Positions 5,227 through 34,447 are shown, counted from the first letter of the stretch. The stretch is 34,447 nucleotides of DNA from a virus (IMGVR_UViG_3300009183_000213:1-34447), one strand, 5' to 3'. Notes: generated from the sequence alone by a model not told the origin. Made by a program: numbers and translations.

Positions 5227-5994
5227 ATGAATTATACACATACTTTTACCTATGTAATAGGTTACAGACACTCACCAGATAGATTACAAAATCTAAGAAA
5301 AACTTTAGACTGGATAAATGGATTTGTCGGATGTGAAGTTATTATAGTTGAACAAGATAAACACTCAAAAATATCACACTTAAATCTTAAAGCTAAACAT
5401 ATATTTCTAAAATCAACATTACCTTATAATAAGTCTTGGGGATTTAATGTAGCTACTAAATATTCAAATTCTAATATCATAGTTTTTGCTGATTCTGATT
5501 TAGTAATGGATCCTAATCAATTTATAGAATCTCTTAAAGCAATAGAACAATATGAAATGATAAATCCATACAAATCAGTTATTGATTTAGATCAAAATGA
5601 ATCTGGATTAAGATTTGAACAAATTTTACAAATTAATAGAGCCGGTAGAGGAGAACTAGACCATCAAAAAGTTCCTCTTTGTGGAGGTATTTGTATTTTT
5701 AGAAAAGATGCTATTATGAGAATTGGTGGTTGGAACGAATCCTTTGTTGGATGGGGAGCAGAAGATGATTTTGTATCTCTAAAAGTTAAACACTTCTTAA
5801 ATTGGACCGAAATTCCTAACAAATGCTATCACTTATACCATCCAAGAACTGCACCTGATATGAAATACTATCAAAGAAATCTAGAGTTATTACAAAAAAC
5901 ATCAGCAATGAGTAAAGATGAAATAACTAAGATGTCTAATGCACAATCTCAAAAAAATGGACTGAATAATAAGTATGATAGTTACTCTATATGA
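5227..5994 (+). CDS. GT2/GT7-like galactosyltransferase-type glycosyltransferase
   Basis: This is the clearest sugar transferase of the operon. After VIGYRHSPDRL there is an IIVFADSDLVM strand with DSD at residues 89-91. A CGGICIFRKDAIMRIGGWN stretch is then followed by FVGWGAEDDF (about 173-182). The GGW..F.GWG.EDDD pattern is the signature of the GT7 C-terminal domain shared by beta-1,4-galactosyltransferases and chondroitin-polymerase-type enzymes. The acidic EDD is the likely catalytic base. Length of 255 residues suits a single catalytic domain. The downstream gene begins 20 bases before this one ends, so translation is probably coupled. Confidence 0.82.
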   Translation: MNYTHTFTYVIGYRHSPDRLQNLRKTLDWINGFVGCEVIIVEQDKHSKISHLNLKAKHIFLKSTLPYNKSWGFNVATKYSNSNIIVFADSDLVMDPNQFIESLKAIEQYEMINPYKSVIDLDQNESGLRFEQILQINRAGRGELDHQKVPLCGGICIFRKDAIMRIGGWNESFVGWGAEDDFVSLKVKHFLNWTEIPNKCYHLYHPRTAPDMKYYQRNLELLQKTSAMSKDEITKMSNAQSQKNGLNNKYDSYSI

Positions 5995-6763
5995 TTTAGA
6001 AAAAATTTGTAACTATTCAGAAAATTCAAAACCATCACTACCTAATGGTATAATAAATTACTTAGAATTTATTGAATCTGATACTGAAGAGTATAAAAAT
6101 TTAGTAAAAAGTAAAAGAAGAGATTTAACTATTGATGCTATTTTAGAAGATAAAATAGATGAGTGGACAGATTCTGAAACTTGGGGAATTGATTTAGACC
6201 AAGAAGGTTATACAAGATCTATTTCACCTCAGATGAAAAGTTTAACGGTTAAATCACAAAAGTTTATAGACAATCAAACTCTTTATTATGATATAGTAAA
6301 AAAGTTAGAATCATTGACTAATCAACCAATGACTAATCATAATATTAATAATAATATGAATGTTATTATTAAAAATAATCCTAATTTATCAAGTTATGAT
6401 AATGATAATTCTAATTTCAGAAAAATAATATCTAAAGTAATGATGTTGAACAGTTTAATTGGAATGGAAAGTAGAGTTGGTCCAGCAAATTCAATGTTAG
6501 TTGGTTTAGATGTTTATATGTATCTACTGAGAAGTAATACATTCACAATTCAAAACAATGGAACAACGGTAACTGGTAATATATCAGGAATTGACATCAT
6601 ACCATCTCATTTAATTAATACAAAAAAAGTTATACTAATGAGAAATTCAAATAAACCAGGAATAGGTTTAAATGTTATTAATAATGTAAATGATTCAACT
6701 TATTTTATGGCAGAAACACCAGTAGTTTGGGAGAAGTGTATAAAATGGTTTGAAATTATTTAG
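5975..6763 (+). CDS. Putative virion protein with HK97-capsid-like C-terminal half
   Basis: The 262-residue product has an acidic N-terminal half with an Asn-rich middle (residues about 115-145). The C-terminal half looks like the back half of T4 gp23/HK97-type capsid proteins. MESRVGPANSMLVGLDVYMYL resembles the conserved A-domain strand (R.G.ANWVVVSP.VA in capsid proteins). Next come a short turn, NISGIDIIPSHLI (like G.ikVyvdP) and KVILMRNSNKPGIGL. It is shorter than a real major capsid protein, so a vertex, decoration or capsid-like accessory protein is more likely. It overlaps the last glycosyltransferase gene by 20 bases and ends tail-to-tail with the next minus-strand gene (8-base overlap). 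Family call is tentative. Confidence 0.4.
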   Translation: MIVTLYDLEKICNYSENSKPSLPNGIINYLEFIESDTEEYKNLVKSKRRDLTIDAILEDKIDEWTDSETWGIDLDQEGYTRSISPQMKSLTVKSQKFIDNQTLYYDIVKKLESLTNQPMTNHNINNNMNVIIKNNPNLSSYDNDNSNFRKIISKVMMLNSLIGMESRVGPANSMLVGLDVYMYLLRSNTFTIQNNGTTVTGNISGIDIIPSHLINTKKVILMRNSNKPGIGLNVINNVNDSTYFMAETPVVWEKCIKWFEII

Positions 6764-7295: not shown

Positions 7296-7306
7296 GTATA
7301 TATTAA
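7296..7306 (-). promoter_or_regulatory. Putative late promoter, TTAATATATAC
   Basis: Minus-strand TTAATATATAC, matching the element upstream of other genes here. It lies between the 49-codon gene and the gene ending at 6756. It favours the ATG at 7271 over that at 7292, which would be too close. Confidence 0.4.
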
Positions 7307-11167: not shown

Positions 11168-11599
11168 TTATAGTAGTAAAATAAGTGATAAAATAATAGA
11201 TAATATTATACCAGCGGGTATTACTCTATAATATAATCCATCATAATATTTATTACTTTTGAATAAAGAAAATCCAACAACAATTAAGTAAGAATATTTA
11301 TCAACTTTTCTGATTTCATATATTTCATAAAGTTCTTTTAAATCCAGTGAGTCTAAAAACTTAGAAACACCAATAGTAAATTCTTTAGTGAAATTTTCTG
11401 ATATCTTATCAATATCAGATTTTTTAAGACTGTAAGCCTCACCAATTAATTCTTCAGGTATATTTAATACAGTATAAATTCTATAAGAATTATCAACTCT
11501 TATATTGAAAGACCTTTCTAATTCGGCTTTGTTATTTTTAATCTTTTGCTTAAACTCCTTAAAAAGTTTAAATTTTTTGAATAAAGATATTTTCTTCAT
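11168..11599 (-). CDS. Small C-terminally membrane-anchored protein
   Basis: 143 residues with three regions. A very basic N-terminus (MKKISLFKKFKLFKEFKQK) comes first. A soluble alpha/beta middle follows with RIYTVLNIPEELIGE, KKSDIDKIS and KVDKYSYLIVVGFSLF. The C-terminal hydrophobic segment (PAGIILSIILSLILLL, residues about 128-143) ends the protein, as in tail-anchored membrane proteins. The gene lies directly downstream of the probable tape measure and 53 bases upstream of the next gene. It may associate with the inner membrane during assembly or infection; function is not known. Confidence 0.6.
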   Translation of the reverse strand: MKKISLFKKFKLFKEFKQKIKNNKAELERSFNIRVDNSYRIYTVLNIPEELIGEAYSLKKSDIDKISENFTKEFTIGVSKFLDSLDLKELYEIYEIRKVDKYSYLIVVGFSLFKSNKYYDGLYYRVIPAGIILSIILSLILLL

Positions 11600-15292: not shown

Positions 15293-15303
15293 TTAATATA
15301 TAA
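15293..15303 (+). promoter_or_regulatory. Putative late promoter, TTAATATATAA
   Basis: Exact TTAATATATAA 24 bases before the ATG at 15328, in the divergent intergenic region with the tape measure gene. Confidence 0.5.
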
Positions 15304-15327: not shown

Positions 15328-15789
15328 ATGAAAATTAAAAAAATATTTAAATATTATTTATTTGGTGAATCTGTTAAAGAAATAGAAATGAATAGAATAT
15401 TGGATAAAGTTTCAGGTAAATATAAATTATCTGATAGAGAAAAAAGATTTTTAGATTTATATCAGAATAATAAAGAAAATGAAGAAATGAAAGATTTTTT
15501 ATATCTGTCAAAGAATACTACTTTTAATAAAATCTCTACTCTTTTAGAGAAGGGCAAAAAAGTAATATGTGATTTACATGATAGAAATGGTAAGATAGGA
15601 CTACCTATAATTGGACTCACCAATTCTTTTGAGGATGAGTCTTGTACAGTTATTATGAAAGGTGATATTAAACACAATCTACATGATAAGTTTCTTTATA
15701 ATATAATCTATAATACTAATAAAGATGAGTATTACTTAGAGGAACAAGATGAATATTTTGAAAAAATAACAAAAAAAAATGAAGATTAA
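15328..15789 (+). CDS. Hypothetical protein with possible capsid-targeting N-terminus
   Basis: 153 residues starting MKIKKIFKYYLFGESVKEIE. The basic/aromatic N-terminus ending in F-G-E resembles the tagged proteins encoded at 24783-27284 and T4 internal proteins, where the prohead protease cuts after [LI]-x-E. After a charged helical part (LSDREKRFLDLYQNNKENEE) there is a beta-rich C-terminal part (CDLHDRNGKIGLPIIGL, ESCTVIMKGDI). Function unknown. The gene is divergent from the tape measure, has a TTAATATATAA element 24 bases upstream, and overlaps the next gene by 11 bases. Confidence 0.65.
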   Translation: MKIKKIFKYYLFGESVKEIEMNRILDKVSGKYKLSDREKRFLDLYQNNKENEEMKDFLYLSKNTTFNKISTLLEKGKKVICDLHDRNGKIGLPIIGLTNSFEDESCTVIMKGDIKHNLHDKFLYNIIYNTNKDEYYLEEQDEYFEKITKKNED

Positions 15790-16096
15790 GAAATTTAATG
15801 ATTTTGTAAATGAAGAAGTATCTGGTACCGAATTAGTAGGTCATAGTATGGGTGTGGCATATGGTGAAACTGGATTACAAAATAAAACAATCAGTCAAAC
15901 GGATACATCATTAGTGAATGTTAAAGGTGGTGAAAATAGTAGTTCTAAGAATGATTTAACAAAAGACTTATTCTTTGAAGATGATTATATTAAATTACAT
16001 AATGATTATCTAAAGGATGGTGGGTTGGAAAGTAATCTAACTGGTAATTATGATGAGGATTTAGTAATAATTATGGATTTTTTAAGTAATAAGTAA
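15779..16096 (+). CDS. Small protein with probable capsid-targeting N-terminus
   Basis: 105 residues starting MKIKKFNDFVNEEVSG, almost the consensus MKxxKxFNxF.xE shared with several genes near 25 kb. The rest is polar and low in hydrophobic residues (GHSMGVAYGETGLQNKT, then an acidic C-terminus with DDYIKLHNDYLKDGG), as expected of a packaged internal protein rather than an enzyme. It overlaps the previous gene by 11 bases, starting inside an A-run, so the two are probably translationally coupled. No family recognised. Confidence 0.65.
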   Translation: MKIKKFNDFVNEEVSGTELVGHSMGVAYGETGLQNKTISQTDTSLVNVKGGENSSSKNDLTKDLFFEDDYIKLHNDYLKDGGLESNLTGNYDEDLVIIMDFLSNK

Positions 16097-16099
16097 TTA

Positions 16100-16110
16100 T
16101 TAATATATAA
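16100..16110 (+). promoter_or_regulatory. Putative late promoter, TTAATATATAA
   Basis: Exact copy of the element in the 53-base gap upstream of the RNA-ligase-like gene, with a 39-base leader to the ATG at 16150. It gives the gene and the downstream fibre pair their own start. Confidence 0.5.
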
Positions 16111-18864: not shown

Positions 18865-21800
18865 TTAAGGTAAAGTTGTTATTTGATTGATTGGAATAAA
18901 TGGACCAATTGGATCATAAGTAACTGGACTATTTCTTATATCAAGTAGTCCTCTTATTTCATAATTCTTTTTATCTCTATATGTTTGACCATATCCATTA
19001 TCAGATGTTATCTCAATAACTAAGAAAGGATCAATATTTGAATCTATAGTGAAATTATAAGGATATAAGTTATCAATTACTCTAAATTCTGAAAATTGTT
19101 GAACAGGCATAAAATCCATTTGTCTCCATTCAGTGACATTTAACCAATTACTACTATCTTTATTTGGAGTAATTGTTGAATATGTTGATGAAGTAGCAGA
19201 AGAAACACCTATTCCACTATAAACATAATAATCTCTATCATACTTATAAACTTGGCCAACACTAAAACTATATGTACCAGTCGGAGAAGACCAATCAACC
19301 GAAGCATCATATTTTCTAGGATTTTTAACTCTATTATTATCTACAACAGATTGATATAACTTATCATAATAAATAACATTATCACCAGTTTGATAAGTAA
19401 CAAACGGATTCCATTCTGGGTATGTTTTATAAGTTCTTATAGAGATATTATAAAAATCCGGAATAGAAGCAGTAGAAGCGCTTGGATATGTAGATAAACC
19501 ACTTGAATATGTAGATGATGATAATAAATTAAAATCTAATACACAAGTATATTGAGTAGAACCGCTATTAATCGGCATCAAATAAGCCTCATTTAATTTA
19601 AATGACACTGGTGACATATTTTGTTTAATATTAAATTGTTGTATATCAAACGAACGGTGTTCTATAGTATTCACACCAACAAAGTCAGCTCTTCCGGTAA
19701 TATCTAATATCTTATGAGTTAGGGGAATAATATTTTTTTGTAACCAATATTTTAATCCTTGTAACTTAATTTGAACCTCTTCTAAACTATAAAGTAAAAC
19801 ATTATTACCTTCTTTATCAGTTATTCTATAAGTTAAATTAAATAAATTTGTAGTTTCATAACTGGCATTTGGGAAGGTATGTTTAATAAAGTCATTCTCA
19901 GTCCAACCTTCAACAGTATTATCAAATATATCAGGAATTTCTACTTTAAATAACTTATCAAAATTATCAGAAGCTTCATTTATATTTCTATAATATTCAT
20001 TTAACTCTAAGTCATTATAACCAAAGAAGTTAATAGCATTTATAATTGATTTATAAGAACCAATATATGGGTATATAAGATGTTTTTGCATCAACATCTC
20101 TTTTCTCTTTTTATTTAAGTAAGTCCAATCAATACCACCTTCATAAATATCATATTCTTTGAAAATAAATATCTCATCAGACCCTATATTTTTACCTACA
20201 TTACCTAGCTCTACTTTAAATCTAATATCTTCATCTTCGGTTTGACCAAGTACATTAAATCTACCAATTTCTCTATCTAAAGCAGTAAATGTCACACCTA
20301 AGTATGTTGTTTTTCCAGTTGTTGGATAATTACTTACAATAGTAGATTCGAATATCATCGAGTCTGCGGATCTAATAAAATCAACAACTATAGTTCTATT
20401 ATAAACATTTTTAATTTTGAATATTCTTCCGCTATTTCGAGAAATATATTGTTTTTTAGTATTAGTTCTATCTTTAATATCAATTCTCAGAAACTGATCA
20501 GGTTTAAGACCTCTCTTATTACCAATACTATCATATACAAAGTATTCACTTGATGCTATATTTAATTTAATCTCACCTCTACTAACACCATCTATATCAA
20601 CAAAAGTTTTAAATGTTATAATATCATTGTTGGTAGATGTGGTATTAATAGTAAATGTGGCATTTTCTCTTTTTAATAGTTGTAATATAGATCTTATAGC
20701 TCCTTCTTGTGGTGAATTGAAACCAATAAATGTTTCTACCGGAGTTGGATCTAAATAAATGTTAGTAGTTTCTTCATCAATATGATCTAAACTATAATAA
20801 ACTCTATCAAATATTGTTTGTTGAGCTTTTGATAAAGAAACATTATTTAGATTTCTATTAGGAACTTTATTAAGTGCAACTTCAGTAAGTGGTTTAGCAC
20901 CAACATAAGCATATGATCCAGTTATTGGTAATTGATCACCAGAAAAATCATATAAGAAAATTTCCGGAACATTATCAGTCAACCATTTATAATAATATGT
21001 TACTCTTGGCTCACCTAAGAAATTTTCTCTAGGTGCTCTAATATATTCTCTTGTTTTTAACCAAAGATTATCTTTTTGAACATAGTTAGGATCTAAAGTA
21101 CCATATTGATTCTCATCAATATTACTAGTAGGTATAACATAAGTAGAAACAAAACTACTTAAATCAACAACTATCTCTATTATAGAGTTTGTATTAGGCT
21201 GAATAGCCCAAACACTCTTTCTATCAGGATTATAAATGATTTTTGTAGTTTGATCTGTTAAAGCAGCAGTGTATATTACACTACCATTTATCGGATTCAT
21301 TACCTTAATAGTGTTTGTAGTAAGAGATGATAAATAAATATCACTATCATATTGATTAAGAGCTAAATAACCATATGTAGAAGGACCCGTATTAAATAAA
21401 GTAGAATTTGTATTAATATCTAATGATTGAAATGATAATGATGAATCAGAAATATACATCTGACCAGTTAAATTACTAAATAATATATCATTAAATCCTT
21501 GAGTTGTTACATTTGTTATAGAAACTACAGAACTATTATCTATTTTATATAAACTAGCACTTCCCCAAACATAAACAGATTCATTAACTGGCTCATAATA
21601 AATATTATAAGCCGAAGATAACATACTAGATAATCCAGGAATACCATAAACGGTTTGAAGTGTTCTAGTAGTACCATCTATTCTAAGAACTACATCATTA
21701 GAATCATCAGTAATAATATACATATCTTTTTCATATTCATTGAAAGTCATATTATAAGTTTTACCAGACACCCAAGATGATCCAGATGTTAAAGTAGTTA

Positions 21801-24711
21801 CAAGAACATTTAGATAGTTATAAATATCAATTCTATTTGTATTTTGATATGATATGTAAATATCACCGTTATAAGTATTTATTTCAATATCAAAAGCATC
21901 ATTTGTTAAAGTAATAGTAGATACAACAGTGTTTAGTAATGGATCTATTACATATAACATATTCTTAGATAATGAATAAAGGTAGTTATTAATACTATTA
22001 AAATTCAAATGTAAACTTTGAGTATTACCAGATAATGAAATAGTAGTTAAATAGTCAGCAAAGTAAGAGTCCATTACTGTAATATCATCACCTAAAGCAT
22101 AAATAGAATTAGACAATTGAACATAAGTAATATCAATCATATTAGAAGTACCTTGATATGAGCTTAAATTATAAGTATTAATCACATAACTATTAGGATT
22201 GTAAGAAATACTAAACATTAAATTACTGAATTGATATTGACTAAATGGACCACCTTGATTACCAGCAGTTGGACCAACAGGAGTCGGACAACCAGTAGCG
22301 CCAAATCCAAGATTATAAGCAATATTAACAAAAGGAGAAACACTACAGATGTCATTTGCTAATCCCCAAAAAGGACCTTCATAACTTAAATCTATCTTGT
22401 CAGGATCTAGACCTAAAACAACAAACTCTTGATTATTATATGGATAAATTGTATTATTAATAGCAACAACCATACCGGTTGCAAATCCGGCTTCTTCTAA
22501 AGAATATGTATTACCAGGAAGTTGAATTTGATTTGATGTTATTAACAATCCAACATTACCCTTCATCTTTCTAATTACAGAGTAGCCTGGAATACCAGGT
22601 AAAGTGCTCTTACCAATTAAAAAAGTATATTCTAATCTTTGGTCCTGTTCTTTAACATCAAACTTTATCATATTATTGATAATAGTTGTGTAGATTCCAA
22701 AATCTTGTAGAACATCAGCATATTCATCACTCCACAATTGTAATGTTCCTGGAATATCAACAGTAGTTGGATAAGTAGAATAAGTAACACCTATACTATA
22801 ATCTCTATTATTTATCTTAACTCCTAGATAACTACCCATTTCATTAAATAAAACTCTAGAGTGTTCTATATAAAAGTCAGCGGTTGTTCCAACTTCAACA
22901 ATAAAATCAATAGGAACATTTGGATATTCAGTAGTTAATTTAATTGAGTTAAAGAAAATTGAATAACCCGATCCAATATATTGTAAAGTAGCAAATATAC
23001 CTAATGTTACTAATCTTGGATGACTTTTAGTTAACCAATTTCTAAGAGTTCTATCTATAGTTCTAGGCATATCAGGTGCTATACCAGAATAAACCCAGTC
23101 TATCTCTTCTTGATAAACCATTTTATTAATCTTAATGATTAATCCAAACTCATCTAAGTCGGTAAAAACTATATTATAATCAAAGTTTTCAGAAACATCA
23201 TAATTTAATTCTGTAACTAATTCTTGTTCAACTCTAACAACTCTTTCATAGTTTGTAATAAATCCACTTCCAATAGAATATGTTAATCCAACTTGTGTAT
23301 GATAGTAATTAACATCTACATATCTAGTAGGATACATTAAATCAGCTTTTAATTTATTAACTGAGTAATATAAATCAATATTAAATAATTTAAATTGATC
23401 TAAATAATTATCAGCTGCTGATGCAAGTGTTATCGCTTGACTCTGTGTAAATGCTTGAGTAAAATATAACTTATTACTATTAAGATAAATCTGAGAAGAT
23501 AATAAAGTCTCAGATACCAATGTCTCAGATACTGGTATATATGTTGCTAATTTCCAATATACTGCATTATCAGGTGTTACCTCATAACCAGTTGATAATC
23601 CAACTTTACTTGTAAAATACTCACTAGTGCCAGGCGAAACACCACTTTGAGTATAAGCTTGTATACACTCATAAATCCTATTATCATAAGTAACTAATGA
23701 TTGTGTATCATAATAAACAACTTGGTTATTAGAAGTAAAATTAATTATTGAATCAACAGTATAAAATGATGTATTATTAACTGATCCATTAATTTTAAAA
23801 ACTATACCTGTCTTTAATATTATAGGAACAATAGATGTTCCAAATGAAATAGAATTTGTTGATATTGATAATGGACCATTATAAATTAAAGGCAAATCTG
23901 TTTTAGAAACAAGCTCAATAACTAAATCTTTATTTGTTGGAAGAGATACACTAGGTAAATCATATTCAAAATAAACAGTATCAGTTAGATTATCATCAAC
24001 AACAGTTACAACTTTTTGAATGAATCTATTATCTGCATTTTTATTCTTAGTAGAGTTTACTATATTTAATCTCCTACCTATAGTATACTTATCATAGAAG
24101 TTAGGCTCATTCCAAATAGACAAATTATTATTGTAAAAAGAATCTATGTAGTTATAAACACCAATTAAATTTAAACCTGAGATATAGATATTACCATATT
24201 GTGTTGGATCACTATATGTTGTGTAAAATGTTGTTTCAAATGTTTGATTATCCGTCAAACTTATAACCATAATAGCACCCTTCTTTGAAGCAACAACTAT
24301 ATAAGTTTGTTGAGAGTTAGTAAAATCTAAAAAAGGAGTATCAAAAACTATATGAGTTCCAATAGGAAACTTTGATTCAAAATTAACACCATATATCCAC
24401 TTAGAAAAGAAGTCAGGATCATTATTAACAGGTTCTATTAATGTAACAGATTGGGTAGAATACTTAGAACCATGAATATCCATACCATATTCATTAAATA
24501 GTTGAAATTTAGCCAATGTTAAAACATCAGGAACTTCATATTCAAAAGCTGATATCTTTTCAAACATATACAAACCATATGTTTTAAATGTATCTGTTGA
24601 ATTTTCATGAAAGAGAATATTACCCTCAAATCTATCGGTTGTATCATTATAACGGAAATTTAAATAGTCACCCTCTTTGTTAAAAAATATAAGCTTTTTG
24701 TGATTTGACAT
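18865..24711 (-). CDS. Giant tail/baseplate protein with beta-propeller and carbohydrate-binding-like segments
   Basis: 1948 residues, by far the largest gene. Beta-rich N-terminal modules include a segment near residues 345-405 (YDNRIYECIQAYTQ, AVYWKLATY) that looks like a chitin/carbohydrate-binding module. From about 825 to 1195 there are eight degenerate repeats of about 40 residues of the type NTYNGDIYIS..TNRIDIYN, resembling YVTN/SMP-30-like beta-propeller blades. A further region near 1530-1565 (KEMLMQKHLIYPYIGSYKS then NAINFFGYND) is typical of large phage baseplate or tail proteins. A second CBM5/12-like element near 1760 reads WNPFVTYQTGDNVIYYDKLY. It likely forms a baseplate arm, fibre or connector that binds host sugars. 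A TTAATATATAA element lies 21 bases upstream, and a bidirectional terminator follows the gene. Confidence 0.65.
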   Translation of the reverse strand: MSNHKKLIFFNKEGDYLNFRYNDTTDRFEGNILFHENSTDTFKTYGLYMFEKISAFEYEVPDVLTLAKFQLFNEYGMDIHGSKYSTQSVTLIEPVNNDPDFFSKWIYGVNFESKFPIGTHIVFDTPFLDFTNSQQTYIVVASKKGAIMVISLTDNQTFETTFYTTYSDPTQYGNIYISGLNLIGVYNYIDSFYNNNLSIWNEPNFYDKYTIGRRLNIVNSTKNKNADNRFIQKVVTVVDDNLTDTVYFEYDLPSVSLPTNKDLVIELVSKTDLPLIYNGPLSISTNSISFGTSIVPIILKTGIVFKINGSVNNTSFYTVDSIINFTSNNQVVYYDTQSLVTYDNRIYECIQAYTQSGVSPGTSEYFTSKVGLSTGYEVTPDNAVYWKLATYIPVSETLVSETLLSSQIYLNSNKLYFTQAFTQSQAITLASAADNYLDQFKLFNIDLYYSVNKLKADLMYPTRYVDVNYYHTQVGLTYSIGSGFITNYERVVRVEQELVTELNYDVSENFDYNIVFTDLDEFGLIIKINKMVYQEEIDWVYSGIAPDMPRTIDRTLRNWLTKSHPRLVTLGIFATLQYIGSGYSIFFNSIKLTTEYPNVPIDFIVEVGTTADFYIEHSRVLFNEMGSYLGVKINNRDYSIGVTYSTYPTTVDIPGTLQLWSDEYADVLQDFGIYTTIINNMIKFDVKEQDQRLEYTFLIGKSTLPGIPGYSVIRKMKGNVGLLITSNQIQLPGNTYSLEEAGFATGMVVAINNTIYPYNNQEFVVLGLDPDKIDLSYEGPFWGLANDICSVSPFVNIAYNLGFGATGCPTPVGPTAGNQGGPFSQYQFSNLMFSISYNPNSYVINTYNLSSYQGTSNMIDITYVQLSNSIYALGDDITVMDSYFADYLTTISLSGNTQSLHLNFNSINNYLYSLSKNMLYVIDPLLNTVVSTITLTNDAFDIEINTYNGDIYISYQNTNRIDIYNYLNVLVTTLTSGSSWVSGKTYNMTFNEYEKDMYIITDDSNDVVLRIDGTTRTLQTVYGIPGLSSMLSSAYNIYYEPVNESVYVWGSASLYKIDNSSVVSITNVTTQGFNDILFSNLTGQMYISDSSLSFQSLDINTNSTLFNTGPSTYGYLALNQYDSDIYLSSLTTNTIKVMNPINGSVIYTAALTDQTTKIIYNPDRKSVWAIQPNTNSIIEIVVDLSSFVSTYVIPTSNIDENQYGTLDPNYVQKDNLWLKTREYIRAPRENFLGEPRVTYYYKWLTDNVPEIFLYDFSGDQLPITGSYAYVGAKPLTEVALNKVPNRNLNNVSLSKAQQTIFDRVYYSLDHIDEETTNIYLDPTPVETFIGFNSPQEGAIRSILQLLKRENATFTINTTSTNNDIITFKTFVDIDGVSRGEIKLNIASSEYFVYDSIGNKRGLKPDQFLRIDIKDRTNTKKQYISRNSGRIFKIKNVYNRTIVVDFIRSADSMIFESTIVSNYPTTGKTTYLGVTFTALDREIGRFNVLGQTEDEDIRFKVELGNVGKNIGSDEIFIFKEYDIYEGGIDWTYLNKKRKEMLMQKHLIYPYIGSYKSIINAINFFGYNDLELNEYYRNINEASDNFDKLFKVEIPDIFDNTVEGWTENDFIKHTFPNASYETTNLFNLTYRITDKEGNNVLLYSLEEVQIKLQGLKYWLQKNIIPLTHKILDITGRADFVGVNTIEHRSFDIQQFNIKQNMSPVSFKLNEAYLMPINSGSTQYTCVLDFNLLSSSTYSSGLSTYPSASTASIPDFYNISIRTYKTYPEWNPFVTYQTGDNVIYYDKLYQSVVDNNRVKNPRKYDASVDWSSPTGTYSFSVGQVYKYDRDYYVYSGIGVSSATSSTYSTITPNKDSSNWLNVTEWRQMDFMPVQQFSEFRVIDNLYPYNFTIDSNIDPFLVIEITSDNGYGQTYRDKKNYEIRGLLDIRNSPVTYDPIGPFIPINQITTLP

Positions 24712-24731: not shown

Positions 24732-24742
24732 TTATATATTAA
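24732..24742 (-). promoter_or_regulatory. Putative late promoter, TTAATATATAA
   Basis: Minus-strand exact copy 21 bases upstream of the giant tail protein start at 24711. A partial plus-strand relative (ATAATATATAA, 24768-24778) lies in the same gap but only 4 bases before the 24783 start. Confidence 0.5.
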
Positions 24743-24782
24743 TTTTATCATTTCTCAATAGTTAAAAATAATATATAAGGTA

Positions 24783-25109
24783 GTGAATAAAATAAATAAT
24801 TATAATCAATTTTTAGTTGAATCTACTATAGATAGAATAACCTCTTGTACGGATGGTATCATTTACTTTCTAAAAGACAATGGTGTAAATGATTGGAATG
24901 AATTTGATAAAATATCTCAATTTAAAAAAGATGTCATTAATAAAATGATAGATAATGGAGTAAAAGATATGAGTGAGTTAGGAGAAGTTAGATTTAATCT
25001 AAGATTAGAACTATATAATAAAGAACAACTAAGAGAATATCTTAAAGAGTTAGAAGAAAATGAAGAATATGAAAAGTGCGCTAAAGTGCTTAAAAAAATT
25101 AGTAAATAA
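24783..25109 (+). CDS. Small protein with probable capsid-targeting N-terminus and UVR-like helix pair
   Basis: 108 residues from a GTG start at 24783 (VNKINNYNQFLVES). No in-frame ATG offers a sensible alternative, and an AAGG lies just upstream. The N-terminus fits the shared tag ending L-V-E, a possible gp21-type cleavage site. The C-terminus (EQLREYLKELEENEEYEKC then AKVLKKI) resembles the UVR motif of UvrB/McsA-like proteins, a short helical hairpin. The middle contains KDNGVNDWNEFDKISQFKK. It is the first gene of the plus-strand run to 27284 and ends 2 bases before the next ATG. Function unknown. Confidence 0.6.
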   Translation: MNKINNYNQFLVESTIDRITSCTDGIIYFLKDNGVNDWNEFDKISQFKKDVINKMIDNGVKDMSELGEVRFNLRLELYNKEQLREYLKELEENEEYEKCAKVLKKISK

Positions 25110-25111
25110 AA

Positions 25112-25306
25112 ATGACACACATTAAAAGATTTAACGAAACTAAAGAAGAAAAGGTCAAAGACCAAGAAATGGAATTCAATGCCCATTCTTTAGAAATAGA
25201 AAAGGATTTAAATCCTAATATAAAAACTGAACCAGTTGAAAATGATGAAAAAGAACTTCAAAAAATTAAAAATAATAAAATTGAAAAGTTCAACGAATTA
25301 AAATAA
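25112..25306 (+). CDS. Small charged protein with degenerate N-terminal tag
   Basis: 64 residues, starting MTHIKRFNETKEEK. The RFN-E element (F-N-E) is a weaker form of the tag on the neighbouring genes. The remainder is dominated by Glu, Lys and Asn with no hydrophobic core (EMEFNAHSLEIEKDL, DEKELQKIKNNKIEKF) and may be disordered or coiled. The start follows AAATAAAA. It lies 2 bases after the previous gene and 9 bases before the next. It could be a packaged internal protein or an assembly scaffold fragment. Confidence 0.6.
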   Translation: MTHIKRFNETKEEKVKDQEMEFNAHSLEIEKDLNPNIKTEPVENDEKELQKIKNNKIEKFNELK

Positions 25307-25315
25307 TAATCAACT

Positions 25316-25891
25316 ATGAAAATTAGAAAATTCACAGATAATAATATATCAGAATCTCTTAAATACCATTTAGATAATAATAAACCTATTACTGAAAATA
25401 TATTCAGACCAGGTTCTGAGGCTTTCTATGAAGTAATCAAAGAATCTAGAGAACTATTTGACTTAGGTAGAGTTAATCTATGTGATGTAGATAAAGAATT
25501 ATACGAATCAACTGATATTGGTAAGTTTGGAATGTTCAATGGTGAATTGGTTCCTTTAGATTTGCCAATGGAAAATATAGAAGAGATAAGAGAGGAAGCC
25601 GAATATCATGGTAAAGAAGTTAAGTTAAACTATCCTATGAGAGGTGGTGCTACTAAAAAGTATCAAGTTTATGTTAAGAATCCAAAAACTGGTAAAGTTA
25701 AAAAGATTGCCTTTGGTGATGTTCATGGTGGATTAACTGCTAAAGTTAGTGATCCTAAATCTAGAAAGTCATTTGCTGCTAGACATCAGTGTCATTTGAA
25801 GAAAGATAAGACTAAAGCTGGATACTGGGCATGCAGGATTAACAAATACGGTCACTTGTGGAGCGGAAAAACTTATCCGGGATTCTGGTAA
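25316..25891 (+). CDS. Tagged virion-associated protein with conserved KKYQVYVKNPKTG / ARHQC domain
   Basis: 191 residues starting MKIRKFTDNNISESL; I-S-E fits the cleavage pattern. Next come NIFRPGSEAFYEVIKESREL and IGKFGMFNGELVPLDLP. The C-terminal domain contains KKYQVYVKNPKTGKVKKIAFG, then KVSDPKSRKSFAARHQCH and AGYWACRINKYG, and ends in KTYPGFW. This strongly basic domain, with its Cys/His pattern, recurs in marine T4-like phages (DUF5872-like) and is known only as a likely structural or DNA-associated domain. It could bind packaged DNA (inference). The start ATG follows CAACT without an SD sequence; the next gene begins 2 bases after the stop. Confidence 0.65.
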   Translation: MKIRKFTDNNISESLKYHLDNNKPITENIFRPGSEAFYEVIKESRELFDLGRVNLCDVDKELYESTDIGKFGMFNGELVPLDLPMENIEEIREEAEYHGKEVKLNYPMRGGATKKYQVYVKNPKTGKVKKIAFGDVHGGLTAKVSDPKSRKSFAARHQCHLKKDKTKAGYWACRINKYGHLWSGKTYPGFW

Positions 25892-25893
25892 TT

Positions 25894-26286
25894 ATGAAAC
25901 ATTTAAAAACATATCAAATATTTGAATCTGCTAACAGAAAATTTATTAATGATTTTATGATTGAATTTGGTATGTTAATAACAATGGGATTCGCACATAT
26001 AACTCAAAGAGCTATTGACCAAAAAGCAACTAATGAATTAACTGATATGATGAAAAGACTCAATAAACCCCTTATAAATGGTAAAAAGTATTCCGAAATT
26101 ATAGATGATATTAACTTTTTATATAAAAACCCTAAGATGTTATCAGCCTTTATAGGACAAATAAGAGAACTTTTATTATATATTGAACCAAGAGTTAAAA
26201 ACTATGTGAAAGATTGTGATGTGAAAGATAATTGGTTAGGTAAAATTGATAAATTCAAAGAAAGATATAAACAAATAGTAAGTTAA
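25894..26286 (+). CDS. Small protein with probable capsid-targeting N-terminus
   Basis: 130 residues starting at the ATG at 25894 (MKHLKTYQIFESANRKF). A longer frame from 25858 would overlap the upstream gene and hide the tag, so it is rejected. I-F-E precedes the predicted cut. The remaining sequence is helical (FMIEFGMLITMGFAHITQ, ELTDMMKRLNKP, FIGQIRELLLYIEP) with some hydrophobic helices but no catalytic motif. It abuts the next gene (TAA immediately followed by ATG). Function unknown. Confidence 0.62.
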   Translation: MKHLKTYQIFESANRKFINDFMIEFGMLITMGFAHITQRAIDQKATNELTDMMKRLNKPLINGKKYSEIIDDINFLYKNPKMLSAFIGQIRELLLYIEPRVKNYVKDCDVKDNWLGKIDKFKERYKQIVS

Positions 26287-26547
26287 ATGTTACCATTTCA
26301 AGAAACTAAATTAAACAATAATGAATTTATCAGAGAGTTCAAACAAGATACTGATTCTGGAGATTTTACTTGGCACCGTGATAGAGAAGATAGAATTATT
26401 GAATCTATAGGTGAAACAGATTGGATGATTCAAATAGATAATGAATTGCCTAAACAAATAAGGGGAGAAGTTTTTATACCAATGGGTATTTATCATCGAG
26501 TTATAAAAGGAACTGGTGATTTGAAAATTAAATTAAAAAAATTATGA
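26287..26547 (+). CDS. Small cupin-like phage protein
   Basis: 86 residues with a compact beta-rich pattern: FTWHRDREDRIIESIGETDW, then IQIDNELPKQIRGEVFIP and IYHRVIKGTGDLKIKL. H-R-D at the first strand and YHRV near the end are spaced like metal ligands of a small cupin, although the full signature is not certain. It lacks the tag of its neighbours. The start follows directly on the previous stop (TAAATG), and the stop overlaps the next start (ATGA), so it is strongly coupled in the unit. Role unknown. Confidence 0.55.
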   Translation: MLPFQETKLNNNEFIREFKQDTDSGDFTWHRDREDRIIESIGETDWMIQIDNELPKQIRGEVFIPMGIYHRVIKGTGDLKIKLKKL

Positions 26548-27284
26548 AATACTTAAAAAAATACAAACTCTTTGAAAAGAAAGAAGAGAAGTACACTGGT
26601 TCCAATAGAATTATTCTATTAGGTCCTCCTACGGTTGGTAAATCAACTATTTCTAAAGCATTAGGTGAAAAACTTGACTTAGAAGTTATTTCTTTAGATA
26701 TGAATCAAATGAAGTTTGGTGGATTTGGAGAAGAAGAAGAAGTCGAATGTGTAAAATGGGCTCTTTCTAATAAAGTAAATAAACCAAGCATATTGGATTT
26801 TGGAGGTGGACATATCTACCAAGGAAATGCTAAAGATTTAATCAAAGGATATAATAACATATTTGTTTTAATACCATCAGAAGACTATGAATTAAGTGAT
26901 GAGATATTAAGAAAGAATTCAAGAAATAACGATATGAGAAAAATGATAGATCATATCTTAAAATCAATTGAAAGTCCAAATTGTAAATTCTCAGATGCTA
27001 AGAAAGAAAAAGTTATTAAGATTGTAAAGAAGATACACTCTGGTGGAAAAGGAGAATTGAAAATTAGTGAAATACCTAAGGCAAGTTTAGATAAATTTGG
27101 AGATAGTCTGAAAGGTGGATTTGATTCTGCTCCTAATTGGGATAAGTATTCTTCTTTCTACACAAAAAAACATGATAAGATTAATCGAAGTATAACAGAT
27201 AATCTAATCGAAGTCTTTACTGAAGGCGGAAACAGAAGGTCAGTATCCTCTATTGTAAATGAAATAATAAGGAAGTGTAAATAA
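26544..27284 (+). CDS. Tagged P-loop kinase-like protein
   Basis: 246 residues. The N-terminus MKYLKKYKLFEKKEEK carries the shared tag with L-F-E. A canonical Walker A follows (RIILLGPPTVGKSTISKAL, GPPTVGKST at residues 27-35). VISLDM comes next, then SILDFGGGHIY (about 83-92), which resembles the shikimate kinase GGG loop. The middle has LIPSEDYELSDEILRKNS and the C-terminus is polar. The fold is a small-molecule or NMP-type kinase; substrate unknown. Being tagged, it may be carried in the capsid and act on entering the host (inference). It overlaps the previous gene by 4 bases (ATGA) and converges on the gp47-like gene. Confidence 0.65.
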   Translation: MKYLKKYKLFEKKEEKYTGSNRIILLGPPTVGKSTISKALGEKLDLEVISLDMNQMKFGGFGEEEEVECVKWALSNKVNKPSILDFGGGHIYQGNAKDLIKGYNNIFVLIPSEDYELSDEILRKNSRNNDMRKMIDHILKSIESPNCKFSDAKKEKVIKIVKKIHSGGKGELKISEIPKASLDKFGDSLKGGFDSAPNWDKYSSFYTKKHDKINRSITDNLIEVFTEGGNRRSVSSIVNEIIRKCK

Positions 27285-28455: not shown

Positions 28456-28466
28456 TTAATATATAA
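28456..28466 (+). promoter_or_regulatory. Putative late promoter, TTAATATATAA
   Basis: Exact copy 28 bases upstream of the LAGLIDADG gene start at 28495, in the divergent gap with the gp47-like gene. A mobile gene carrying the local promoter type implies it is expressed late, or that the element predates the insertion. Confidence 0.45.
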
Positions 28467-29921: not shown

Positions 29922-29932
29922 ATAATATATAA
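29922..29932 (+). promoter_or_regulatory. Putative late promoter, ATAATATATAA
   Basis: Near-exact copy 25 bases upstream of the tail tube start at 29958. A strong single promoter suits a high-copy structural gene. Confidence 0.5.
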
Positions 29933-29957: not shown

Positions 29958-30575
29958 ATGCCATTACCACATTTTACGAATATCTCAAACGTAGGTTCAC
30001 CAGGTGGACCAGGTACGTCACCAGAGGAACCAGTATATACTAATTTGTTTGAAATAACATTTGTATTACCGACTCTATTACAAGCACAAGGTAGAAATAC
30101 TTTATTGCTATTAGAAAACGCAACATCGATTGATGTAAACTTAACAGAAGCAATTGAAACTAAAGAACAAAGATTCAAGTATTCAACTAGAGCTTTTATG
30201 GCTGCTGGTCCTGCTAAGACAACTGTTGAATTCAAAATTAACTTTCAAGTTAATGTTAATCAAGGAGGTTCAATGGAAAACTGGAACTCATTAAAATCAT
30301 GGTATGATTTAGTTTGGAATTCTCAAACTGGTTACTTACATTATAAAAGTGATATTATTGGAACTATTATTGTGAATCAACATGATAAAAAAGGATTTGT
30401 TCTTAGAAGGGTAACTTTCCAAAACTGTCAAATTAAATCAGTAGCTGGTATTTCTCTTAAATGGGAAGGAAATGATATCTGGTCATGTGATGCTGACTTC
30501 ATAGCAGATTACTGGATTGATGAATACATTGATAATAACTTCTCTATTAATCCTCCACTTATTTCTGGATACTAA
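29958..30575 (+). CDS. Tail tube protein, gp19-like
   Basis: 205 residues. A Pro/Gly-rich N-terminus (GSPGGPGTSPEEPVYTN) is followed by NLFEITFVLPTLL, EQRFKYSTRAFMAAGPAKTT and several strands. Near the C-terminus, VTFQNCQIKSVAGISLKWEG leads into DIWSCDADFIADYW. The NC..ksV.gisL....ND...ff..DYW pattern and overall beta-barrel strand content resemble the T4 gp19 tube family (PF06841). It would form the inner tube inside the sheath, whose gene ends at 33651 on the opposite strand. A candidate promoter (ATAATATATAA) lies 25 bases upstream and a shared terminator follows. A gp54/gp48-like tube cap is an alternative. Confidence 0.68.
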   Translation: MPLPHFTNISNVGSPGGPGTSPEEPVYTNLFEITFVLPTLLQAQGRNTLLLLENATSIDVNLTEAIETKEQRFKYSTRAFMAAGPAKTTVEFKINFQVNVNQGGSMENWNSLKSWYDLVWNSQTGYLHYKSDIIGTIIVNQHDKKGFVLRRVTFQNCQIKSVAGISLKWEGNDIWSCDADFIADYWIDEYIDNNFSINPPLISGY

Positions 30576-31799: not shown

Positions 31800-31810
31800 T
31801 TATATATTAA
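31800..31810 (-). promoter_or_regulatory. Putative late promoter, TTAATATATAA
   Basis: Minus-strand exact copy 19 bases upstream of the gp26-like gene, in the short gap after the EDxHD endonuclease gene. Confidence 0.5.
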
Positions 31811-31851: not shown

Positions 31852-33555
31852 TTAAACTTTATAAATCCACTTTTTATTACCAGCATTATATATTCTATAG
31901 TGTCCCAACTCCGACATTATCTCCTCTTCAGTTTTATTAACATCATATCCCATTTTTATCAATTTTTGCTTTCTCCAATTGAATCTATGTTCTCTTATGC
32001 CATCAATTACATACCAATATCCTGGTTTTGATGTATGTGAATATTCAAATCCTAATGTTTCATATAGATCACCATTTGAAATTAAATTATCTGAATATGT
32101 TTCCACTTGAATAGGATTATATTTAGTAATAAAATATTTCATCAGCTTAGAAGCCCCTCCAACAACACTAGTATTTATTTTATTACAAAATCTAGTTAAT
32201 TCATAATGTTTATCTTTATTTCTATTCTTTTCATGTCTTTGTAAAGGCAGGCGTAGTTTAGAAAATGTCATCAGACTAATCAATTCATTATTGTTAAATA
32301 GTCCAATTCTTATAGATGACTTACAATCTCCTTGTAAATGATTACTGTCTAAAAATTCTTTTGAATCATTATAAGATATTTCTTTTATTTCACATTTTCT
32401 GGCATATATTCTATTTGAAGTTTTTCGTAACTTATTTAAAACAAATGACTCACATATCTCTCTATTTGTTACCCAGTCATCTTCCCAGATTGTTATTAGA
32501 CTCACATTATTCAAATTTGATAATTCATATTTCTTCAAATGATAATTTTCATTTTTAAATTTCTCAGAATGCCACCAAACACCATTAAACTCAAATCCTA
32601 TTTTTAATTCTGGTAAATAAATATCTATTTCATGTGGATTAATTATATTTTTACAATCTAATAAAACTTCACCACTATAGTTATTAGTAATGAAATTATA
32701 TAATTCTATTTGTGAAATAGACGCATTTTCGGATATAGGGAAACAATTTGTACATATATTTACTCCACTATTTGTTCTATAATAAAACTGATATGTTAAT
32801 ATATCAAACTCATTAGAACATTCAAAACAATTAAATACCAAACTAGTTGATATTCCTTTTTTAAATCCTATAAATTTAAATTTTGTAATATCAATTTTAC
32901 TTACTATTCTACTTCTATAAGAAGCATAGAAAAAATCTATTGTTTTTTTATGTACATCTTTATTCATCCATGGATGTTCAACACCATATTTCTCCAATGA
33001 TGTATTTCTATATGTCTCTTTGTAGTTACTTAGTTTAAACGATTCTATTCTTTTCTCCAAGAGTTCTTTTGATTCACTTGGATTACTAACTCCGTAATTT
33101 TTTAATAAAGTATTCTTAGATTTATTCTGTGTTTCTATAAGACACATAGCAGAGTTGTGTCCATATTTTTCTTGATTAGTTTTACTAGACTTGTCCTTAA
33201 CCACTTTAGATTGAGCGGGTGATTTTGTTCCAAACTTTTTCAAAGATTTTTCCTCTTTCGTCTTAATCATATTTGGATCAGATGATACACATCTTCTACT
33301 ACAATAATCAAGATATCCAATTGTTGAATTTTTAAAATTTACACTGTTTTTACAATTTATATTTTTACAAACAGGTATACTTTCTAAATTATTTAGAGTT
33401 AAATAAACTTTTTCTTTAAATGATATGTTTAATAAATTATTATCATCACAATAATCCACTATATAATCATATTCCTCTTTATAGTTTTTAAGAATAAATG
33501 ATTCCTTTGACATACGCCCGGAAGAATCTGGTATATTAAATACTTCTAAATTCAT
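31852..33555 (-). CDS. EDxHD/Vsr-like homing endonuclease with N-terminal repeat region
   Basis: 567 residues. The N-terminal half has cysteine pairs (CKNINCKN, CSRRC) and several K..YGV..P repeats (KKFGTKSPAQSKVVKDK, KNYGVSNPSESKELLEKR, EKYGVEHPWMNKDVHKK), a substrate-binding layout seen in large phage homing endonucleases. After a CF.CS...C..CF zinc-finger-like region, the nuclease core reads ISQIELYNFI, then HEIDIYLPELKIGFEFNG and VWWHSE. This matches the EDxHD/Vsr-like fold (I-Bth0305I type). A further domain follows with HYELTRFCNK and GYWYVIDGIREHRFNWRKQK. It sits between sheath and gp26-like genes with its own TTAATATATAT element 17 bases upstream. Confidence 0.75.
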   Translation of the reverse strand: MNLEVFNIPDSSGRMSKESFILKNYKEEYDYIVDYCDDNNLLNISFKEKVYLTLNNLESIPVCKNINCKNSVNFKNSTIGYLDYCSRRCVSSDPNMIKTKEEKSLKKFGTKSPAQSKVVKDKSSKTNQEKYGHNSAMCLIETQNKSKNTLLKNYGVSNPSESKELLEKRIESFKLSNYKETYRNTSLEKYGVEHPWMNKDVHKKTIDFFYASYRSRIVSKIDITKFKFIGFKKGISTSLVFNCFECSNEFDILTYQFYYRTNSGVNICTNCFPISENASISQIELYNFITNNYSGEVLLDCKNIINPHEIDIYLPELKIGFEFNGVWWHSEKFKNENYHLKKYELSNLNNVSLITIWEDDWVTNREICESFVLNKLRKTSNRIYARKCEIKEISYNDSKEFLDSNHLQGDCKSSIRIGLFNNNELISLMTFSKLRLPLQRHEKNRNKDKHYELTRFCNKINTSVVGGASKLMKYFITKYNPIQVETYSDNLISNGDLYETLGFEYSHTSKPGYWYVIDGIREHRFNWRKQKLIKMGYDVNKTEEEIMSELGHYRIYNAGNKKWIYKV

Positions 33556-33572
33556 ATTACATATTGTTTAAC

Positions 33573-33583
33573 ATATATATTAA
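33573..33583 (-). promoter_or_regulatory. Putative late promoter, TTAATATATAT
   Basis: Minus-strand copy differing in the last base, 17 bases upstream of the EDxHD endonuclease start at 33555 and beyond the sheath terminator. It gives the inserted gene its own transcription start. Confidence 0.45.
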
Positions 33584-33650: not shown

Positions 33651-34447
33651 TTATCCGTTAATGAATCCACCTGCACTGATTGCTCCAGTTCTAAGTATTG
33701 TAATGTTATTTACAATGATACCCATACCCTTAATTGGTTCAACATAAGTGTCAAGAACACCAATTTGATTATCAATAACATCAGGAGTGTTGTTTTCTTC
33801 ATCAATTTTATTGAAGTAGTTGTATAAACCATTTCTACTTACATAAGTTTCACAGATAACATCTGCTCTAAGTTTAATTTCTGCTCTAATATCAGCTGTA
33901 TTAAATTTCCATTGGAAGTCTAATAACATTCTTGATAATTCTCTTTCAAGTTCAATTAACACCTCTCTAACATGAATGTAAGAAAGAGCTGATTTATAAA
34001 GTGTTTGAGCTGTATTTTCAGTCTCAATAACATAACCTCTATTTCTCTTGAACACAATTGGATTCATTTGAGCTTGATTTATAAATTCAATATCAGATGG
34101 TGTGAAATCCATTTCAAGACCAGCGATATTAGTGATTCTACCATTAGTAACACCAGCAGCAATAGTCCAAGGAGTTATTGCTGAACTATTAGATAGTTTT
34201 TTTCTCATATAAGTTGTAGCAGCGAACATAGCTGGTGGAACTTCAACTGGTCTACCATTATCATTATTAATCACATAAGGCATAAAGTAACCTACACAAG
34301 TTGTACCAAGACCATCACCAAATGTGTAAAGAAAAGCTGGACTTGATTCAGGATCACCACCTTTAGAAACATATTCTAACTGAAGGACTCCTTCTGTATT
34401 AACAAATGTTGGAGAAGTTGAATTTTTGAATGATCTCATTGAAGGCA
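33651..34447 (-). CDS. Tail sheath protein C-terminal part, 5' end outside window
   Basis: The minus-strand frame is open to the right edge; the ATG at 34439 is internal, and residues P-S precede it in frame. The visible 265 or so residues include ITPWTIAAGVTNGRITNIAG, then MNPIVFKRNRGYVIETENTA, LYKSALSYIHVREVLIELER and FQWKFNTADIRAEIKLRADV. The last part has LDTYVEPIKGMGIIVNNITI. This pattern (IaGvtrGri, NPIv.., R.l..iE..l, dy.w.fN....r..i) is the conserved C-terminal core of phage tail sheath proteins such as T4 gp18. Sheath subunits contract to drive the tube through the envelope. A hairpin terminator lies 14 bases downstream. Confidence 0.85.
   Translation of the reverse strand, partial: PSMRSFKNSTSPTFVNTEGVLQLEYVSKGGDPESSPAFLYTFGDGLGTTCVGYFMPYVINNDNGRPVEVPPAMFAATTYMRKKLSNSSAITPWTIAAGVTNGRITNIAGLEMDFTPSDIEFINQAQMNPIVFKRNRGYVIETENTAQTLYKSALSYIHVREVLIELERELSRMLLDFQWKFNTADIRAEIKLRADVICETYVSRNGLYNYFNKIDEENNTPDVIDNQIGVLDTYVEPIKGMGIIVNNITILRTGAISAGGFING

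Follow-up and report, generated by a model that had tools for sequence, protein, structure and literature searches.

Genes of a huge bacteriophage share a short N-terminal tag, and we consider it likely that these shared N-termini are T4-type capsid-targeting propeptides which have been hugely expanded in number. The tag is repeated on unrelated bodies and exchanged on a single body, its protease and capsid partners are encoded in relatives, and a common promoter-like element accompanies it. The capsid-targeting reading was proposed in the initial annotation of this DNA, and it is supported by the excess of tagged genes, by tag positions 4 and 7, by the protease in relatives, and by the tagged 'internal capsid protein' genes of Sphingomonas phage PAU.

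The record analysed is a fragment of 34,447 bases (hereafter the window) from a Mahaphage-type genome of a huge, lake-type bacteriophage. The nearest complete relatives found are LR745206 (W01, 634,780 bases) and LR756502 (W02, 642,428 bases), and most of the window genes tested have counterparts of ~82-89% identity on an IMG/VR contig of 385 kb (G001). The Mahaphage clade takes in all the largest genomes of the huge-phage study, with Bacteroidetes as predicted hosts (PMC7162821).

Tagged Genes in the Window

All seven open reading frames to which the initial annotation had assigned the N-termini are present, at the positions and with the N-termini given there, and are listed here with a slash marking the predicted cut.

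15328-15789, plus strand: tag-like N-terminus MKIKKIFKYYLFGE/S, with [LI][FL]GE/S kept in three relatives
15779-16096, plus strand: tagged gene, MKIKKFNDFVNE/E, the same body bearing other tags in relatives
24783-25109, plus strand: tagged gene, tag at residues 1-13 (VNKINNYNQFLVE/S), indel-rich linker in relatives, conserved body
25112-25306, plus strand: short acidic gene, tag MTHIKRFNE/T, a weaker case
25316-25891, plus strand: phrog_7595 gene (E=1.9e-13), degenerate tag MKIRKFTDNNISE/S, second conserved site KPITE/N
25894-26286, plus strand: tagged gene with its start at 25894, MKHLKTYQIFE/S, helical body
26544-27284, plus strand: tagged P-loop NTPase, MKYLKKYKLFE/K (Pfam AAA E=2.3e-4, above the curated cut-off)

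Membership of the proposed family proved to be uneven. Genes 25894, 24783 and 15779 are strong members, their tag being kept in homologues, and 26544 is strong by its sequence; 15328 is plausible, and 25112 and 25316 are weaker. Among 10 homologues of 25894, Y7, F10, E11 and S12 are invariant and K2, L4 and K5 nearly so, and its AlphaFold2 model (pLDDT 84) combines a well-folded helical body with values below 50 for tag residues 1-8; a Foldseek search with this model gave weak helical-bundle matches only (E >= 0.5). In the 24783 family (11 homologues aligned), M1, I4, F10 and E13 are invariant and Y7 nearly so, and an indel-rich linker of 0-16 residues separates the tag glutamate from the conserved body. 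The start codon of 24783 is GTG, a start supported by the TAATATATA element lying 14 nt upstream. The body of 15779 appears in relatives behind MKIKKFNDFINE/E, MIKKFYQFINE/I and MAIKSFKSFNE/E. In 26544, the tag of which can be compared with only one, near-identical homologue, the P-loop starts at about residue 21, directly after the tag. The three relatives of 15328 conserve LFGE, LLGE or ILGE before serine.

For the weaker members, F(x)E is kept in 14 of 21 distinct homologues of 25112, the rest having FND or FD, and homologues of 25112 and 25316 are fused in frame in some relatives (L038, L033, L035, L026 and others), which leaves the 25316 tag in the interior of the fused protein there. An 18-sequence alignment of 25316 has E13, E27 and N28 nearly invariant and SE conserved, and its product is probably an inner-head or structural protein and not variable cargo; its AlphaFold2 model was too poor for a structure search (pTM 0.38). 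Gene 26287, inside the tagged operon, has no tag. The tag-like N-terminus MKKISLFKKFKLFKEF of 11168-11599 (minus strand) was rejected as a tag, its glutamate not being conserved.

Elsewhere in the window, 5975-6763 weakly matches (E=1e-3) the C-terminal part of phrog_28442, a family also matched by the Mahaphage major capsid protein (MCP), and its product is perhaps a capsid-related or vertex protein. The segments 31852-33555 and 33651-34439 hold a tail-sheath-like gene and, directly downstream of it, a homing endonuclease; the sheath-like gene has its start close to the end of the contig, and of the sheath profiles it matches the C-terminal part alone.

Excess and Spread of the Tag

When the search for the tag was run genome-wide in W01 and W02, the proposed family was found to be far larger. 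A core pattern blind to the glutamate, M[KRN][HYN][LI]xx[FYH], fits 161 of 1387 genes against ~10 expected on the assumption of independent positions; such tag counts are approximate because the gene caller placed some starts wrongly, as happened for 24783 and for the W01 homologue of 15328. Glutamate occurs within residues 6-24 in every one of the 161 core-fit genes compared with 72.5% of the other genes, and this excess vanishes at residues 41-59. An unbiased discovery of N-terminal triplets, made without a prior motif, left 212 triplets in W01, 181 in W02 and 35 in G001 above the largest shuffled value.

Each genome of the Mahaphage lineage has about 40-110 tagged genes, which form runs along the genome. 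The claim that the shared N-terminus precedes unrelated bodies was upheld, as 466 tagged genes from the loci examined fall into 206 body clusters by sequence and include unrelated known domains. The strict pattern MK[HY]LKx[FY]K.FE was found on 110 IMG/VR stretches with 52 body clusters, and in cellular genomes there was one match among 84,980. This sole match lies on JAIOYD010000005.1 (L335), a huge-phage contig in a 'Rickettsiaceae' MAG with genes syntenic with the window, and the contig was probably mis-binned into the MAG. A literature search, conducted mostly without subscription journals, found no paper describing such a tag expansion.

Tag Anatomy and Predicted Cleavage Site

The tag of Mahaphage-type phages is about 9-16 residues long. 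L/I4 and F/Y7 are among its most strongly enriched positions, are invariant or near-invariant in homologue alignments, and coincide with the residues on which IPIII targeting in T4 mainly depends (4 and 7), processing depending on residues 8 and 10 (PMC9026906). In the T4 record, IPII and IPIII both start with MKTYQEFIAEA, and the T4 protease gp21 cuts after L/I-X-E (PMC9026906).

The initial annotation had described the tag as ending in [LIVF]-x-E and had compared it with gp21 cutting after [LI]-x-E; two tag classes differ in how well they fit the T4 rule. Of the 61 genes whose tag has [FY]E at residues 10-11, 50 carry I or L at P3 and 36 have serine at P1'. Another 59 core-tag genes make up the [FY]NE/S class, where P3 is aromatic (F or Y) and departs from the T4 rule in its strict form.

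Protease, Scaffold-Like Region and Capsid Partners

A gp21-type prohead protease had been named as the cutting enzyme, and its absence as grounds for rejecting the inference; this check did not refute it. A direct protease search in the window gave no match, which we attribute to the record being a 34 kb fragment, and all complete or long Mahaphage-type relatives examined, G001 included, encode one, with a gp23-type capsid gene adjoining it where looked at. In W02, the gene at 225272-227371 (L128:5272-7371) has an N-terminal head-maturation protease domain (phrog_207 E=8e-29; Pfam S80 E=1e-6, above the curated cut-off). Because the Pfam S77 match (E=5e-5) alone falls below its curated cut-off, we also drew on PHROGs, the neighbouring genes and the MCP site. 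Directly following the protease gene is gp23 (Pfam E=4e-28), the portal gp20 is nearby, and INE/N is invariant in 52 of 52 distinct MCP N-termini. S77 matches were also obtained in G001, Mahaphage LR756501, LR756504, Lak-A2, PTm1, PAU and MA9V-2.

The protease domain is fused to a long scaffold-like region of ~13-residue repeats (YSEYLAENLDKNI), each with an [LI]AE site, as read directly in the W02 gene and found at 198546-200669 in W01. A protease-scaffold fusion is also annotated in Tenacibaculum phage PTm1.

Cultured Relatives and Control Phages

In phage PAU, MK[TS][LI]xxL[YF]E occurs on 18 genes, with the consensus MK[TS][LI]xxLYE/[AS], and these cluster by head genes. Of the five genes that the record labels 'internal capsid protein' (gp70, 142, 154, 199, 270), four carry the PAU tag (hypergeometric P ~5e-5); the record gives no basis for these notes, and in-house names for capsid parts such as 'mango' and 'banana' suggest a virion analysis behind them. 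The PAU MCP of 585 residues has 520 in its mature form by N-terminal sequencing (PMC5646251), and a cut at LME64/N65 would give 521, within one residue of the mapped N-terminus. MA9V-2 has MKxFFxFINE/[AS], and the gene that immediately precedes its protease bears a related tag. The PAU and MA9V-2 tags together imply that the tag varies by lineage and that the [LI]xE ending is kept.

Bacillus phage G (NC_023719, L416-L440) was chosen as a protease-free negative control, and the S77 protease was not detected in it; it nonetheless has a repeat of its own (MKRLIKK), the N-terminus MKRL[IV]KK[AS] being found on ~14 genes with different bodies, several of them with an HGT(S) motif. Repeated N-termini are thus not unique to S77 phages, and the phage G repeat is possibly an independent tag system. 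In T4 itself (NC_000866), the product of gene 61.1 (18966-19130, minus strand) starts MKTFKEFIKEDMVA, close to the T4 capsid-targeting sequence, and may be an unrecognised packaged protein.

Cargo Bodies and Alternative Readings

Most tagged bodies are orphans. The domains recognised among tagged genes are SET (2e-11), NFACT-R (5e-16), NUDIX, methyltransferase, M15 peptidase, HNH and P-loop. Motifs resembling those of ADP-ribosyltransferases (YHG/FRG), spotted by eye in a number of bodies, had no Pfam or PDB support, and a kinase-like body reached E=0.1 only; both assignments were rejected.

In T4, the proteins Ip1-3 are injected and inhibit type IV restriction enzymes, and they have the N-terminal leader alone in common (PMC12373910), and by analogy the tagged cargo may follow the same logic of injected anti-host proteins. 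The inference of the initial annotation that the tagged proteins are packaged with the DNA is supported, and on these sequence data we judge packaging to be probable; for injection we lean only slightly in favour. The proteins may instead be processed core or scaffold fillers that are not injected or are inert in the host, an idea compatible with packaging that departs from the full reading at the last step only. Genes 25112 and 25316, conserved in many relatives and structural in appearance, fit this idea, as does the tag on PAU gp152, annotated 'scaffolding'. However, enzyme-like bodies and a very high diversity of cargo speak more for accessory proteins directed at the host, like T4 Ip1-3 (PMC12373910), and we regard a filler role for the set as rather unlikely. 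Virion proteomics for the Mahaphage-type clade was searched for and none was found.

Could the tagged genes be one paralogous family in which only the N-terminus of a single ancestor was conserved, with no role in packaging? A motif DIxxELxDxGF follows shortly after the tag in ~18% of tagged bodies compared with 3% of untagged ones (W01, W02, G001), which implies that some of these genes may be diverged paralogues and suggests a fast-diverging cargo family; the occurrence of tagged genes in runs points the same way. Common descent of the whole set is nevertheless highly improbable given the unrelated domains (SET, NFACT-R, NUDIX, methyltransferase, P-loop), the analogous yet different tags of other lineages, and the exchange of tags on one body. 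Homologues of 25894 begin with MKHLKTYKIFES or, in one relative (L230), with MKSYKEFLFES, which is nearly the T4 IPIII signal, and one NFACT-R protein has MIKKYKLFKE/G in one version and MKHISNFKLYLE/S in the other.

We give no more credit to the tag being a protein address for something else, such as the tail, the membrane or a replication compartment. A primase-like protein among 150 tagged representatives is an odd cargo for the head and would suit such an address, but the tag ends in a gp21-type site and co-occurs with a gp21-type protease, and in PAU it marks 'internal capsid protein' genes and lies by the head genes.

A Promoter-Like Element Upstream of Tagged Genes

Genome-wide in W01, W02 and G001, a TTAATATATA element is sharply placed either 13-14 nt or ~28-31 nt before start codons, and it precedes the portal, gp15 and gp25 homologues and a baseplate-hub gene. 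A near-start element stands before 31% of the genes with a tag, compared with 6% of those lacking one (P=1.4e-25). The element occurs on 5 of 17 T4 late homologues versus 2 of 25 early ones, a trend only. The window has nine TAATATATA copies (7297-7305, 15294-15302, 16101-16109, 24733-24741, 24769-24777, 28457-28465, 29923-29931, 31801-31809 and 33574-33582), each placed 13-49 nt ahead of a start codon and on the matching strand; the number is not unusual, 5.3 being expected. Four of them are detailed below.

15294-15302, plus strand: TAATATATA, 34 nt before the tagged gene at 15328
24733-24741, minus strand: TAATATATA, divergent, facing the tagged operon, 30 nt before the 1948-aa gene 18865-24711
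24769-24777, plus strand: TAATATATA of the near-start class, before the GTG of the tagged operon, with a positional rule in relatives
29923-29931, plus strand: TAATATATA, 35 nt before the tail-tube-like gene 29958-30575

The natural reading is that TTAATATATA would be a late promoter with partly leaderless transcripts, the near class of the element suggesting leaderless late transcripts. A T4-style TATAAATA promoter does not account for the tagged set, and neither does net charge.

Least probable of all is a constraint on the nucleic acid, with first codons selected for translating leaderless late mRNAs, because although 62 of 180 genes with TAATATATA 10-17 nt before the start are core-tagged compared with 130 of 1688 without it, 130 of 207 core-tagged genes lack the near-start element, homing-endonuclease-like genes have it without the tag, synonymous codons vary at Leu/Ile4, His/Tyr3 and Lys5, and the conserved glutamate, I/L at P3 and serine at P1' are a protein-level signature.

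Proposed Mechanism and Its Meaning

Under the capsid-targeting reading, tagged proteins would be made late in infection alongside head proteins, and [LI] at residue 4 with the aromatic at residue 7 would dock them on the prohead core. The S77 (gp21-type) protease would then cut after the tag-terminal glutamate, usually at [IL]-[FYNK]-E or F-N-E before Ser, Ala or Asn, and the body would stay in the head with the DNA and could exit with it at infection. We infer docking, cleavage and packaging, and more weakly injection and action in the host. A wider proposal is that Mahaphage-type phages possess a general protein-delivery system, in which about a hundred tagged cargoes per genome would be expressed from late, partly leaderless transcripts, would dock and be cleaved, and would be injected together as a mixed payload, each lineage having its own tag-protease pairing; we advance it tentatively, as a possibility held with less than even confidence.

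Most genes of huge phages have no known function, and in the Mahaphage genomes examined the N-terminal rule would place about 10-13% of them in the payload of the virion. For every mature protein the rule predicts exactly where its N-terminus lies, and for each virus particle it predicts about a hundred different proteins carried, maybe injected. Injected anti-host proteins, with three examples in T4, may turn out to make up a major class of genes in the largest phages. Candidate packaging tags are indicated in cultured relatives such as PAU.

Comparison with Known Systems

The closest parallel is T4 IPI-IPIII (MKTYQEFIAE), small proteins with unrelated bodies behind a short N-terminal tag. 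Its key residues are likewise 4 and 7, and it ends, as do most tags of the [FY]E class, in [LI]xE followed by a small residue. However, T4 has three tagged proteins compared with about 40-110 per genome in the Mahaphage lineage, where the set has several tag sub-classes (FNE/YNE included) and many enzyme-like bodies, in phages predicted to infect Bacteroidetes. The protease domain is homologous to T4 gp21 (peptidase S77) and likewise stands beside gp20 and gp23 homologues, and the scaffold-like region resembles gp22 in being rich in [LI]xE; unlike T4, the Mahaphage relatives fuse the two, with LAE/IAE repeats of ~13 residues. The jumbo phages phiKZ and SPN3US also package many proteins (ejection proteins) processed by a gp21-like protease, but SPN3US propeptides are mostly long (>100 residues) and phiKZ is cut at S/A-x-E (PMC5694885, PMC9026906), in contrast to the short Mahaphage-type tag. 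Finally, the MK[TS][LI]xxLYE proteins of PAU, four of them annotated 'internal capsid protein', present another lineage-specific tag, which differs in its consensus, in its smaller number of genes, and in keeping the protease and scaffold genes separate.
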